This document shows positions 7,213-11,712 of a stretch of DNA of 56,411 nucleotides, in pieces. The notes beneath the pieces are model-generated. The model ran no database searches. It worked only from the letters and a program-made list of their open reading frames with translations, and was not told the origin of the DNA. This stretch comes from a virus. The number at the start of each line of letters is the position of its first letter. Within the stretch, counting starts at the first letter, position 1. Where the stretch lies: positions 1 to 56,411 of IMG/VR virus record IMGVR_UViG_3300032893_000056. One strand, 5' to 3'. The position numbers were made by a program, and so were the translations under genes.

Positions 7213-7944
7213 TTACGAAAAGCAAGCATCTCGTGTAATTTTTTCCATGTTCTTGAGATCCATGCCGAACTTCACCTCACAGTCGAGGGGAACGACCCAC
7301 TCGTAACCGAAACATCTCTTGATGTTGGCGATCAGATCATCGAACACTTCGTAAAACAAGCGTGCGATCTGGGAAATATACTGAGCCTCCGCATCGATCA
7401 CAATCGAATCGTGTACGGTGGAAACAACCAAGGCTGGGATTCCACTTGATTTCAGTCGCCGGAAGAAGCTGATCCGGGCAATCATCATAACATCCGCACC
7501 TGTGCCCTGCACCGGGTAGTTCGTCAGAGTTGTCCATGGTATCTTTATCTCTCCCGATGGGCTACGACCAAGGTTGATGATCCACTGCCTTCCACTCGGA
7601 CCCTCCAATGGCCTTCCGGCAACGACACTGTTGCACCATTGTTTGTGGCACTTATCGATTCCGGAATACTTGGAGTAGAACTTTTCTCCGATTCCATCCC
7701 AGAACTTTGGATCGTTAGAGACGTGAGTAAAGGCTGGATCGTGCGCAAATGACCAACCACTTCCTCGATAGATTGTGCGGAAGAGATAGATCTTTGCAAT
7801 GAGGCGAGAAGGCAGATCAAATGATGCTTGGTTGAGACTATGTGTATCCGCTCCTGCAAGGACTTCAGCAATTCCTGTTGAGTCACGACTCATCTCCAGT
7901 AGTACGCGCCACTCAAGCTGGCTTGCGTCCGCTTGTATTAGCAA
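7213..7944 (-). CDS. DNA polymerase I (family A), C-terminal part of split gene
   Basis: Carries the polymerase palm and fingers: motif A DASQLEWRVLLEMS at the very start, motif B LIAKIYLFRTIYRGSG around residue 47, and motif C VHDSIV near residue 180. The start is a TTG three bases after the stop of a 61-residue gene. Everything upstream of motif A (exonuclease and thumb) is in the separate gene at 8261-9397. Together they would form one complete T7-like polymerase of about 620 residues. Whether the halves assemble as two chains or the gap is removed from RNA is unresolved. Confidence 0.9.
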   Translation of the reverse strand: MLIQADASQLEWRVLLEMSRDSTGIAEVLAGADTHSLNQASFDLPSRLIAKIYLFRTIYRGSGWSFAHDPAFTHVSNDPKFWDGIGEKFYSKYSGIDKCHKQWCNSVVAGRPLEGPSGRQWIINLGRSPSGEIKIPWTTLTNYPVQGTGADVMMIARISFFRRLKSSGIPALVVSTVHDSIVIDAEAQYISQIARLFYEVFDDLIANIKRCFGYEWVVPLDCEVKFGMDLKNMEKITRDACFS

Positions 7945-7947
7945 TAA

Positions 7948-8133
7948 TTAGACTCCGATAATGCCGTTATCATCTCCCTTAATCTCTCGAAGTTTGATCT
8001 GCAACTTCAATTCATCGAAAGTTTCCTTCGGAAGACCTTGAACAAAATCATAAAAATTATCACTGTACTCAAGAAGAACGAACATATCGTTCAACATCTT
8101 CTCTTCATTTAGCCGGGATTTGCTGCGAGCCAT
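7948..8133 (-). CDS. Small helical protein between the polymerase halves, 61 aa
   Basis: Begins MARSKSRLNEEKMLNDMF and includes a stretch FYDFVQGLPKETFDELKLQI. The composition and helical pattern look like a true protein, and the ATG overlaps the end of the preceding small gene. It ends three bases before the polymerase C-part starts. No family recognised. It is one of two genes filling the interruption in the polymerase. Confidence 0.6.
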   Translation of the reverse strand: MARSKSRLNEEKMLNDMFVLLEYSDNFYDFVQGLPKETFDELKLQIKLREIKGDDNGIIGV

Positions 8134-8264
8134 GTGGTGATCTCCGCATTTTGTTCATTAAGATTTTGAATCATCGCCAACAGATTGGTAATGTCCGCCT
8201 GATAGGCAGCCAATTGCTGTTGGTTATTCTGAAGGAGTTGTTGTAGTACTTGTTGAATTGTCAA
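8109..8264 (-). CDS. Gln-rich coiled-coil peptide between the polymerase halves, 51 aa
   Basis: An open frame beginning TTG ACA at 8264, overlapping the TGA stop of the polymerase N-part in the compact TTGA arrangement. The product is Gln/Asn/Leu-rich (MTIQQVLQQLLQNNQQQ) with a heptad-like pattern through LLAMIQNLNEQNAEI. Start-stop coupling on both sides argues for translation. No family recognised. Association with the split polymerase is only a suggestion. Confidence 0.55.
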   Translation of the reverse strand: MTIQQVLQQLLQNNQQQLAAYQADITNLLAMIQNLNEQNAEITTWLAANPG

Positions 8265-9397
8265 TCGTTATACCTCGAAATGAAAAGGTCGTTTGCTTCA
8301 CTATCTAGATTCTGGAGATTCGGGCCACTGGAACTGAGACGCCCGGTGGCTACGGTCACTTGATTAAATTGGCCGTGGAGATATCCCGGTTCCCAATTCT
8401 GTTCCGCTGCTTTCTTGACCAGTCCTTCATATGTCTTGGACAACAGAGTCTCCAGTCGTGTTTGCTTTTGGATAAGCTCGATAATCCTCCGAGTCTTTCG
8501 TGATGGTTTCAGCTTCAGTAGGGTATCAGCATTGGTAGCGAAGTACCCCTCCTTCTTAAGTGCTGACCCACGGAGAGGTTCAACCAGCCGAGGCAATTGG
8601 TGCTCTACTTTATTTACTTTGAAGCGAGGTTCACCAATTCGTTTGCCTGACTTGTAATAACCGATACACTCCCTTACTTCTTCAACAATCGTCCCACCGT
8701 AAAGAAAGGCAGACAGATGGTCCCCAGAAGAGAAGTTAATAGGCACATCAGGATAAACTCCGTGAAGTTCGTTGGTGATTTCTGATATCTCGTTTTTAAT
8801 CTCCTCAGCACGGCTCCTACAGAGTTCCTCATTATACCTGATGCCGTTCCACTCCATCTCCTCCAGTACCAACAGGTCCAAACACATCAGCCGCACTAGT
8901 CGCTTTGATGTTGGCGGCATATGTTCCATCTGGTTGTAGTACAAATTCAAGGTTTGTTGGGCATCCGTGGATGCATAGGATGAAAGTATCTCCCACGGAA
9001 TATCCTCCGTCTGAATTCCCTTCGCCCAATACTCCTTCGCCACTACGTCTTCCTTGTGTCCAAGCCCATATTTGACTAAAGACTCCTCCAGTGAGGGATA
9101 CTTCCATGTTTGATTGCTCCTTACAAATTCAGCTAGCTGGCAGTCCCAGACTCGTTTGTCCCCCCACTCGACTCCAAGTTTTCTAAGGACGTGTGCATCA
9201 TATTTGAAATTGAAACCAACGAGAAGGTCAGCTTGTCTAATTCGTTCTGCAAGTTCCGCAAGACTATCCGGGCTTGTCTTAACTGCTCCTGCACCACTTT
9301 GATCTGCCCAACTCCAGCATACATTTTTGAATCGTCGATCAAATGGGGCCCCAACATTATAGGTATTATTTTCCGTATCCAAAGCTAGAACTTTCAA
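8261..9397 (-). CDS. DNA polymerase I (family A), N-terminal part of split gene
   Basis: Contains the 3'-5' exonuclease (exo I: VLALDTENNTYN; exo II: LVGFNFKYDAHVL; exo III region: SSYASTDAQQT) and the start of the polymerase domain up to TGRLSSSGPNLQNLDSEAND, then stops before motif A. The start is placed at TTG 9397, which overlaps the HNH stop (TTGA) and has GGAGG upstream; this gives MKVLALDTENNT, parallel to the N-terminus of the HNH gene. Motif A and the rest follow in the gene at 7213-7944. Confidence 0.9.
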   Translation of the reverse strand: MKVLALDTENNTYNVGAPFDRRFKNVCWSWADQSGAGAVKTSPDSLAELAERIRQADLLVGFNFKYDAHVLRKLGVEWGDKRVWDCQLAEFVRSNQTWKYPSLEESLVKYGLGHKEDVVAKEYWAKGIQTEDIPWEILSSYASTDAQQTLNLYYNQMEHMPPTSKRLVRLMCLDLLVLEEMEWNGIRYNEELCRSRAEEIKNEISEITNELHGVYPDVPINFSSGDHLSAFLYGGTIVEEVRECIGYYKSGKRIGEPRFKVNKVEHQLPRLVEPLRGSALKKEGYFATNADTLLKLKPSRKTRRIIELIQKQTRLETLLSKTYEGLVKKAAEQNWEPGYLHGQFNQVTVATGRLSSSGPNLQNLDSEANDLFISRYND

Positions 9398-9822
9398 ATA
9401 CGCCTCCAAGATTTTCGGAGTTTGATAGCACTAACATTGGCTTTGGTAATTCCATACTCTTTGGCAATCTCCAATTGTGGTCGAACATCCTCACGTATCC
9501 GCAGTACCTGTTCTGCCGTTAACTTTGGTGTTCCATTTCGAGCTGCCCTCCCTTTACGTACCATATCCTCCATATTGTCTTTGTGTGTTCCTATGAACAA
9601 ATGAGCAATCTCATAACACGCGGGATTATCACAATGATGGCAAATTTTCATGCCTGTTGGAATAGGTCCGTTATATTTCATCCACTCCAATCTATGAACT
9701 CCTTGTGGACGACCCTCATATTGTTTCATTCCATAGCCGTCTTTGTCCTTATATCCCGCCCATTCTTTACACGGAACTGTATTCCACGTGTTATTCTCGG
9801 TATCGATCGCTAATACGTTCAC
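9394..9822 (-). CDS. HNH homing-type endonuclease carrying a polymerase-like N-terminus, 142 aa
   Basis: The first ~15 residues (MNVLAIDTENNTWNT) copy the exo I start of the DNA polymerase encoded immediately downstream. The remainder is a typical phage HNH nuclease: HRLEWMKYNGPIP, CHHCDNPACYEIAHLFIGT, KDNMEDMVRKGR, then a C-terminal helix-turn-helix-like segment (LTAEQVLRIREDV ... EIAKEYGITKANVSAI). It appears to have inserted at, or arrived with, the 5' end of a polymerase gene. The shared codons differ at many synonymous positions, so this is not a recent local duplication. Confidence 0.88.
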   Translation of the reverse strand: MNVLAIDTENNTWNTVPCKEWAGYKDKDGYGMKQYEGRPQGVHRLEWMKYNGPIPTGMKICHHCDNPACYEIAHLFIGTHKDNMEDMVRKGRAARNGTPKLTAEQVLRIREDVRPQLEIAKEYGITKANVSAIKLRKSWRRI

Positions 9823-10031
9823 TTATTCTGTTGTTCAAAAAGAGCAGTTGCCATCAACTCAAACGTATATTCCTTGATCTCCCTATCTTCAAATTCCTGA
9901 TTGTATGCACTCACTGTTTCATCAGCTTCATCAGCATCCGCTGCATGGAACACTGCACAGGGAATACTGGAGTTATCAACAAGGTTACGACGCATCACGA
10001 TGTATACAATTTGATACTTACGATCTGACAT
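9819..10031 (-). CDS. Hypothetical protein, 70 aa
   Basis: Begins MSDRKYQIVYIVMRRNLVD, with an alternating hydrophobic strand followed by an acidic helix (ADADEADETVSAYNQEF). No family recognised. It lies between the helicase and the HNH/polymerase genes and overlaps the HNH start by four bases. Confidence 0.6.
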   Translation of the reverse strand: MSDRKYQIVYIVMRRNLVDNSSIPCAVFHAADADEADETVSAYNQEFEDREIKEYTFELMATALFEQQNK

Positions 10032-10043
10032 TTATTCTCCCAA

Positions 10044-11282
10044 TCACAGGTCCACATACCTACCACGTTCAGGATCTAGAAGTGCCTCCCAGCGTGCATG
10101 TCTCATATTGGAATCAGAATCTTCATCACCAATGAGTTTATTCTTACTCAAATGGAGATATCGTAGATTCTCATAACCAATGTCATTCACCTTCCCTATC
10201 CCGAGTATCCAGTCTGCTTCGGCCTGTTTACTCGTCTTGGCATTGGCTACATTTGCCATAGTAAGCCATCTCTGACCCTCACCTGAGCCATCAGCTTGAC
10301 ATACACCAATGATGGGGCAGTACTTCTTAGCTAACTCACGAGCCCAGATGTAGATAGAGCCAAGTCGGAGATCTTCCCGATCATTATCAAATCCCTTCAC
10401 CTTATCTATCTGATCAAATACAATCAATGAAGGTTTATGTTTATCAATCAAGCGTTCAATCTGAACTTTTGAAGCAGATACGATATCGACAATCTTGAGT
10501 CGTCCTTTGATGATCTCTTGGAATCGTTCTCCATTACCTTTTACATCTCTCATCAATTCTGTAAGAGTCAGATTCAGAACTGACTGGTAGCACCGAAGCA
10601 TCACCTTATTAGATTGCTCTTCATTGTTTAGCCAGAGGATGGGTCCTTCGGCGTGCTGAGCCATATATGTAACTTCACTAGCCAAGAACGTAGTTTTACC
10701 AGTCTCCGGTCTCGCAAAGATAAAGCCGAAGTCTCCTTTACGAAGTGATCCAAGAGCTTTATTAAGAGAGTTAAGACGAAATCTAAGGCCCGCCACAGTA
10801 TGACTTGAAGCAATAAGCTCCCCAAGGTCATCAGATGTGAAAGTAATTTCACCGGAATCTTCATCGTTAGCATCCTCGCTATTTGTTGATAGTCCCTCCA
10901 TTAGCTTGAGCACATCAGAGACGCCCTTCCTGCCGTCCGCAGCATCGTAGGCTAGTACGGATAGCTCCCGAAGCTTGTGGGCCGTCTGGAGGCCTTCTAT
11001 GAGCTTCAGAGTGCTATCGACACTGGAGTCGTTCTCCTTCAGAGCTTGGAACACCTCGGTGTAGTACTCACCCTTCTGTCTCGGTGTGGCGAAGAACAGG
11101 TTACTGAGATCATCAACGGATAGATCCACCGGATCATCTGTAGATTTAAAATATCCATCGAGAGTTGTGATTACTGGATATAGTTCCTTGGTAAGATACT
11201 CCAGTTTTATGTTATCTCGGTAAGCCTCGTAAAACTCTTTGGAGCACAGGTGTTTAATAATCGATAGATTCATATCTCCCAT
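10044..11282 (-). CDS. Replicative DNA helicase, DnaB/RecA-fold, 412 aa
   Basis: A poorly conserved N-terminal ~155 residues precede a RecA-type motor: Walker A ARPETGKTT (190-198), a catalytic region WLNNEEQ (218-223), Walker B LIVFDQID (286-293) and a downstream CQADGSG loop. This matches phage DnaB-like helicases that pair with a separate primase, here the TOPRIM gene at 14079-14855; T7 has both on one chain. An alternative start is the ATG nine bases downstream. It belongs to the operon driven from the promoter near 11.8 kb. Confidence 0.9.
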   Translation of the reverse strand: MGDMNLSIIKHLCSKEFYEAYRDNIKLEYLTKELYPVITTLDGYFKSTDDPVDLSVDDLSNLFFATPRQKGEYYTEVFQALKENDSSVDSTLKLIEGLQTAHKLRELSVLAYDAADGRKGVSDVLKLMEGLSTNSEDANDEDSGEITFTSDDLGELIASSHTVAGLRFRLNSLNKALGSLRKGDFGFIFARPETGKTTFLASEVTYMAQHAEGPILWLNNEEQSNKVMLRCYQSVLNLTLTELMRDVKGNGERFQEIIKGRLKIVDIVSASKVQIERLIDKHKPSLIVFDQIDKVKGFDNDREDLRLGSIYIWARELAKKYCPIIGVCQADGSGEGQRWLTMANVANAKTSKQAEADWILGIGKVNDIGYENLRYLHLSKNKLIGDEDSDSNMRHARWEALLDPERGRYVDL

Positions 11283-11712
11283 TCACAAGAGTTTTATTTT
11301 TAAGATACTCTTCAACTGCTGCACGAACTTGTCGAGGGGTAAAAGAGGCACGCCTAACGGGTGCTGTTTGCGTAGGCTTCTGATCGAGGATATCACCTAC
11401 TTGTTTGAAGTGCTCCACCCGATCTTCGGTAGCCATAGCTTTGAGGTTGGACCAAGCGAGATTACGTGGGTTACCATCCTTGTATCCAATCAGGTGATCT
11501 GGCCATTCACCTGTAGCCATGAACCAAGCCAGCTTGGGTCCGTGAAACTTCTCACCGTTGAAGGTGATACAGAGATACCCATTAATGGAAAAGGAACCCG
11601 CAGTTTCACTGCGACCTTTTCGATGGTTTACCCAATAAAAATTACCAGTATCTTCTTCATATTTTATTTCTTTAAGAAGATTATATAGATTACTATTATA
11701 TGTTTTAATAAT
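11254..11712 (-). CDS. HNH endonuclease with non-canonical start, ~152 aa
   Basis: The C-terminal ~88 residues have an ATG, but the frame stays open well upstream and encodes the rest of an HNH protein: GSFSINGYLCITFNG, KFHGPKLAWFMATGEWPD, GNPRNLAWSNL. No ATG, GTG or TTG opens this longer frame. An ATT at 11712 lies eight bases after AAAGGA and is the best start candidate. The usual DH of the HNH core (IDHinG) reads LIGYKDG, so the catalytic histidine appears lost and the enzyme may be inactive. It is the first gene after the 11.8 kb promoter and overlaps the helicase start. Confidence 0.62.
   Translation of the reverse strand: MIKTYNSNLYNLLKEIKYEEDTGNFYWVNHRKGRSETAGSFSINGYLCITFNGEKFHGPKLAWFMATGEWPDHLIGYKDGNPRNLAWSNLKAMATEDRVEHFKQVGDILDQKPTQTAPVRRASFTPRQVRAAVEEYLKNKTLVNGRYESIDY

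Follow-up and report, generated by a model that had tools for sequence, protein, structure and literature searches.

A polymerase start at the head of an HNH endonuclease gene: a probable spliceless homing element in a split viral DNA polymerase

How does an HNH endonuclease gene come to begin with the N-terminus of a DNA polymerase, and how does that polymerase come to begin a second time where the endonuclease gene ends? The question is raised by a viral DNA of 56,411 nt (positions 1 to 56,411 of IMG/VR record IMGVR_UViG_3300032893_000056, called the window here), in which a chimeric HNH_3 endonuclease ORF of 142 aa with a GTG start (9394..9822, minus strand) precedes the N half of a family A DNA polymerase (8261..9397, minus strand), which comprises the exonuclease and the first part of the polymerase domain (Pfam DNA_pol_A and DNA_pol_A_exo1). 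In minus-strand translation the HNH ORF opens with MNVLAIDTENNTWNT and continues with VPCKEWAGY. Residues 1-15 correspond to the polymerase start, a prefix of 14-15 codons, and the nuclease core begins at about residue 16. The nuclease has no start codon of its own ahead of the first core cysteine, and the polymerase prefix is fused to it in frame.

The polymerase 5′ end is thus present twice. The displaced copy (GTGAACGTATTAGCGATCGATACCGAGAATAACACGTGGAATACAG; 9777..9822, minus strand) heads the HNH ORF, and its GTG at 9822 is overlapped by the TGA stop of a small upstream ORF (9819..10031, minus strand). The working copy (9352..9397, minus strand) opens the polymerase N half as MKVLALDTENNTYNVGAPFD from a TTG (9397-9395) that overlaps the HNH stop TGA (9396-9394). 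There is a further in-frame TTG at 9409, and we favour the TTG at 9397 because of the alignment with relatives and because of the spacing to a ribosome-binding-like GGAGG, read directly from the DNA inside the HNH 3′ end (9403..9407, minus strand), 5 nt before that TTG. The two copies are identical at 30 of 46 bases (65% at the DNA level, 71% at the protein level) and differ mainly at synonymous sites (pS 0.81, pN 0.18). The score of their match, at an offset of -1 relative to the HNH stop, was 56; the 99.9th percentile of 6299 mispaired controls was 46.7, so that the match is far above chance. The original prediction had described the polymerase N-terminus on the HNH protein, the restart at a TTG overlapping the HNH stop, two copies differing at about a third of bases, mostly synonymously, and the duplicated start with a GGAGG inside the HNH 3′ end, and it was accurate in all of this.

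Which of the two starts belonged to the resident gene can be approached through relatives that lack the HNH gene. A single-protein search of viral contigs with the polymerase found no relatives and GenBank phages gave no polymerase match at 60% or more, and relatives were therefore taken from an alignment search, which gave 80 polymerase loci (L020 lies on the same contig as L008). The division of the polymerase into two halves, the second of which starts with MLIQADASQLEWR at motif A (7213..7944, minus strand; Pfam DNA_pol_A), is common to the window and L020/L008, L010, L013 and L021. At this split, two small ORFs (51 and 61 aa) lie between the halves in the window (7213-8264, minus strand); similar small ORFs are present in L021 and one ORF in MEP401, and the halves are adjacent in L020 and L010.

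The nearest polymerases, L020 and L021, each about 65% identical to that of the window, are the only two uninterrupted relatives, and both are without the HNH gene. In both, the polymerase start is intact (MSNALAIDTENNTWNKGNPFDRRF and MSEPLALDTENNTWNTGAPFDGRF, respectively) and is overlapped by a gene that, judged by eye, resembles the upstream ORF of the window. The position of the displaced copy relative to the upstream gene matches that of the polymerase start in L020 and L021 and, because the similar gene runs directly into the intact polymerase there, the displaced copy can be said to hold the place of the resident start. Its stretch LAIDTENNTWN is identical to that of L020. The displaced copy agrees with each of the uninterrupted relatives at 30/40 bases and the working copy at 27/40 and 25/40, so that the former appears slightly closer to them, by a weak difference of a few bases in 40, and sliding identity along the polymerase gave no clear breakpoint or recombination point. 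On the best reading, the insert would consist of the HNH gene together with the polymerase start downstream of it, and the resident start would now drive the nuclease. The original prediction, in which the HNH gene probably arrived with a foreign polymerase 5′ end, is supported in substance; which copy would be the foreign one is judged from synteny and the modest difference in similarity. The best reading remains that the element entered the polymerase gene at its exo I codons and that the polymerase received a second start with different codons, and the comparison of 5′ ends that the original prediction had proposed did bring out uninterrupted forms, in L020/L008 and L021.

We consider it probable that the HNH gene constitutes a homing element that works without splicing and swaps gene ends, and that it has entered the coding sequence of the split family A polymerase near the 5′ end, after about codon 15 (TGGAATACAG). 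The junction copies and empty sites described above favour this reading, as do HNH homologs without the prefix, the low confidence with which the prefix is modelled, the recurrence of the arrangement, the exchange tracts at helicase loci and the likeness to I-HmuI and I-PpoI; cleavage and mobility are what we infer from them. The nuclease would cut uninterrupted polymerase genes at or near the conserved exo I stretch, and the break would be repaired from an element-bearing genome, with the HNH gene and the working copy copied in together by co-conversion. The polymerase would become a working hybrid and the resident start would be displaced; cutting followed by such repair would leave a polymerase that is either a resident-donor hybrid or wholly of donor origin. 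The displaced copy may then serve as translation start for the nuclease and as left homology arm for the next round, and the different codons of the working copy may protect against re-cutting.

To place the window among other HNH genes, we took HNH loci from viral contigs and bacterial genomes and compared the stretch before the HNH core with the gene start at the HNH stop (316 usable ORFs, with the mispaired controls given above). At a score of at least 45, a displaced copy of the neighbouring gene's end was found in 15 of 286 non-redundant HNH_3-type clusters, where the mispaired controls predict 0.68; at a score of at least 50 there were 10 of these clustered HNH cores against 0.28 expected. 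A few of the 15 (L414 and L195) are not clear, and two, L361 and L167, are 3′ cases. Nearly all strong matches lie at offsets of -10 to +4 from the HNH stop, and most of the HNH genes surveyed have no duplicated end. The sample was picked by similarity to the HNH of the window and two other HNH groups, and the rate of about 5% therefore applies to that sample only.

Besides the polymerase of the window, good 5′ cases have as targets an AAA_24 ATPase (L412), a C5 methylase (L407), an ASCH-like protein with a weak Pfam match (L408), a glycosyltransferase (L148), a YqaJ recombinase (L393), an SF2 helicase (L183 and relatives, L191 and the isolate Vibrio phage 1.191.O, MG592561), an N6/N4 methylase with a displaced ORF of 65 residues (L389) and genes of unknown function (L178 and L325). 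SSB is the target twice, fused and at a lower score in L287, and not fused in L417, where the target is named from the sequence only. In L287, Pfam itself finds SSB profile positions 1-20 in the HNH protein (E 9e-4), which illustrates how an HNH prefix can pass for a domain of the target and cause annotation errors. Around position 3429 of L417 there is a second SSB-type gene start (MTDTIITVVGNLVEDPTLRF), of which a displaced copy lies upstream of an HNH gene, out of frame. In-frame fusion was found in most cases with different targets, and the helicase group is mostly unfused, with HNH genes that have their own start. The arrangement in the window is thus one of a recurring kind, found next to many different targets.

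Several further candidates were set aside. L414 (score 65) was not counted as good, there being no clear gene on that strand, and L340, L194 and similar high scores came from arginine/serine-rich stretches away from the HNH stop. A broad screen for 3′ matches was dominated by low-complexity sequence and its matches were mostly rejected; only L361, and possibly L167, look like real mirror cases. In L361 (2456-3560), a Rad52-like gene ends with AESQAFRRAAARFGLGLYLYDK and a stop, followed by the HNH gene and then by a displaced SSNAEAMALRRCCAKFGLSLDLWVK end, also closed by a stop.

Pooled over 16 pairs, the displaced and working copies gave pS 0.77 and pN 0.25. Both were thus functional coding sequence while they diverged, for which separate genomes are the simplest setting. 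When the displaced end was traced as a trait on a tree of 309 HNH cores, 17 changes were needed for 20 tips; the trait is scattered over the tree, which implies repeated gain or loss. For the methylase target of L407, methylase-like starts that match the displaced copy are present in 13 other Pseudomonas genomes. Most of them read on, uninterrupted, into methylase sequence, and a few have frame breaks; the displaced copy was the query, and the greater likeness to it is therefore partly due to selection. For L408, only a partial uninterrupted match was found, in the same genome (L439). A more general statement, for which we see about even chances, would be that some 5% of the HNH_3 genes of phages and prophage-like contigs are members, or recent descendants, of a general class of homing elements that need no splicing. 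Such elements would enter essential genes within the first few codons, at the site that they themselves cut, would take over the displaced start to have the nuclease translated, and would restore the target with a start whose altered codons resist cutting.

The helicase loci carry signs of movement. Two different HNH types occur there, and with both of them the displaced copy ends at the same codons (LYA or LYAW). Between L197 and L203, identity is 93% over the segment that extends from -678 to +1590 relative to the HNH stop and 82-85% in the flanks, and L212 and L220 are 88% identical in a tract of HNH gene and helicase and 72-80% in the flanks; the exchange tracts thus include both the target and the HNH gene. 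L168 and L207 are 90% identical in the upstream flank and 83% from +997, and in between, over their different HNH genes and the initial ~1 kb of helicase sequence, no match was detectable. Over -933 to +2340 relative to the HNH stop of L168, these two loci present one site with common flanks and a swapped cassette. Both have an HNH gene at the same helicase site, and no recognisable displaced copy was found in either, from which it follows that displaced starts can be lost and that the displaced copy is not required for persistence.

These observations also bear on the possibility that the insertion arose by non-homologous joining during recombination, in which case the HNH gene would either be a passenger or cut at some place other than the junction. 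In favour of this, free-standing phage homing endonucleases such as Seg and Mob of T4, which home without an intron, have cut sites that lie hundreds to thousands of bases away from the endonuclease gene (PMC2988022), and boundaries of exchange can be marked by nuclease genes (PMC10448857). However, the occurrence of two HNH types at identical helicase codons fits cutting at the site, as do junctions that lie in or adjoin conserved motifs (exo I, the SSB start, LRxYQ of the helicase and SGIEA of the methylase), and we regard this explanation as unlikely. Seg and Mob have no intron or intein, adjoin replication genes and co-convert flanking sequence (PMC2988022). The element described here resembles them in position and in the lack of an intron or intein and would likewise co-convert its flank; unlike them, it is inserted inside coding sequence and leaves a displaced gene end behind.

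Tandem duplication of the polymerase start within one genome, with the HNH gene captured between copies that subsequently drifted, would account for both copies being in one genome, and drift could explain their differences. However, a displaced copy free of polymerase function should not keep its amino acids while most synonymous sites change, unless the prefix were under selection in the HNH protein, and the island-like identity tracts at the helicase loci indicate exchange between genomes, which makes such a duplication quite improbable.

The nuclease itself speaks for a displaced start rather than for a polymerase-like segment that belongs to the HNH protein. Residues 41-84 match Pfam HNH_3 (PF13392; E=1.6e-13, 50.4 bits against a gathering cut-off of 24.8), and 24 sequences share H62, C64, C69, H74 and N83 without exception, so that both profile and core residues place the protein in this family. 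We take H62 and N83 to be the equivalent of the I-PpoI catalytic pair, from our own reading of the profile alignment and general knowledge. The closest GenBank proteins are the gp7.7 HNH proteins of T7-group phages 13a and SEA1f, 49% identical over residues 16-18 to 140-142; they are found at another genomic place and open with MTDC and LTPC, almost at the core and without a polymerase prefix. The original prediction had held that absence of the N-terminal match from homologous HNH proteins would count against it. The absence is real, but it is expected if the prefix is a displaced resident start, outside the nuclease proper. The AlphaFold model has a mean pLDDT of 88, and residues 1-10 average 54.

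It is accordingly very unlikely that the prefix is a chance or functional mimic, for instance a partner-binding segment of the HNH protein that was never derived from a polymerase. Being in frame, the prefix would become part of the translated HNH protein, but its match to the working copy exceeds the controls, it sits at the polymerase start position of the relatives, it is lacking in homologs and modelled with low confidence, and other HNH genes carry the starts of other neighbouring genes.

I-HmuI is an HNH enzyme encoded by a group I intron in a DNA polymerase gene. It is the best solved structural match of the AlphaFold model (Foldseek prob 0.99, E 0.006), its home is likewise a polymerase gene, and the sequence profile weakly matches both I-PpoI and I-HmuI. 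That the window's HNH gene is intron-encoded or part of an intein whose splicing element was missed is nevertheless scarcely credible: polymerase introns often house HNH genes, but the search for intron sequence that had been proposed for the junction gave no Rfam match at the gathering threshold in the window and none at E<=1 around the locus, and the HNH ORF ends with its own TGA instead of continuing in frame into both exteins, and the polymerase restarts with a complete start of its own, so that nothing needs splicing. Stop and restart stand here in place of the splicing of I-HmuI. The gene is free-standing in that it lies outside any intron or intein, and it does not lie between genes without interrupting one, being inserted after about codon 15 at the resident start position.

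The closest known system is that of the fungal mitochondrial mobile ORFs, which form gene hybrids in atp6 of Allomyces and in atp6, atp9, cox2 and nad3 of Glomus (PMC3630166). There, a homing endonuclease ORF lies in a conserved gene, a replacement end of foreign origin continues the gene in phase, the resident end has been pushed to the far side, and the copies differ mainly synonymously (PMC3630166). A displaced resident end and a replacement end, again with mainly synonymous differences, likewise flank the endonuclease ORF of the window. However, the fungal ORFs replace the 3′ end, encode LAGLIDADG or GIY-YIG enzymes and reside in mitochondria (PMC3630166), whereas mostly the 5′ end is affected here, as in the polymerase of the window, by HNH_3 genes on viral and bacterial-genome contigs. 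In the fused cases the displaced start also drives the nuclease, unlike in the fungal ORFs. An open-access literature search found no phage report of displaced gene starts, an absence that is weak evidence. If our reading is true, neither an intron nor an intein is needed for a homing gene to enter the coding sequence of an essential gene, and the arrangement stands between classic intron homing and intergenic free-standing homing. Cut sites would then be predictable from sequence alone, and such elements would supply phage replication genes with recoded 5′ ends.

A second HNH-like ORF is located at 11254-11700 of the window (minus strand), with an HNH_3 match that is weak and below the cut-off. 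It overlaps the start of a DnaB-like helicase gene, of which no duplicated start was found there. L020 also carries an HNH-like ORF at this place, but a different one.
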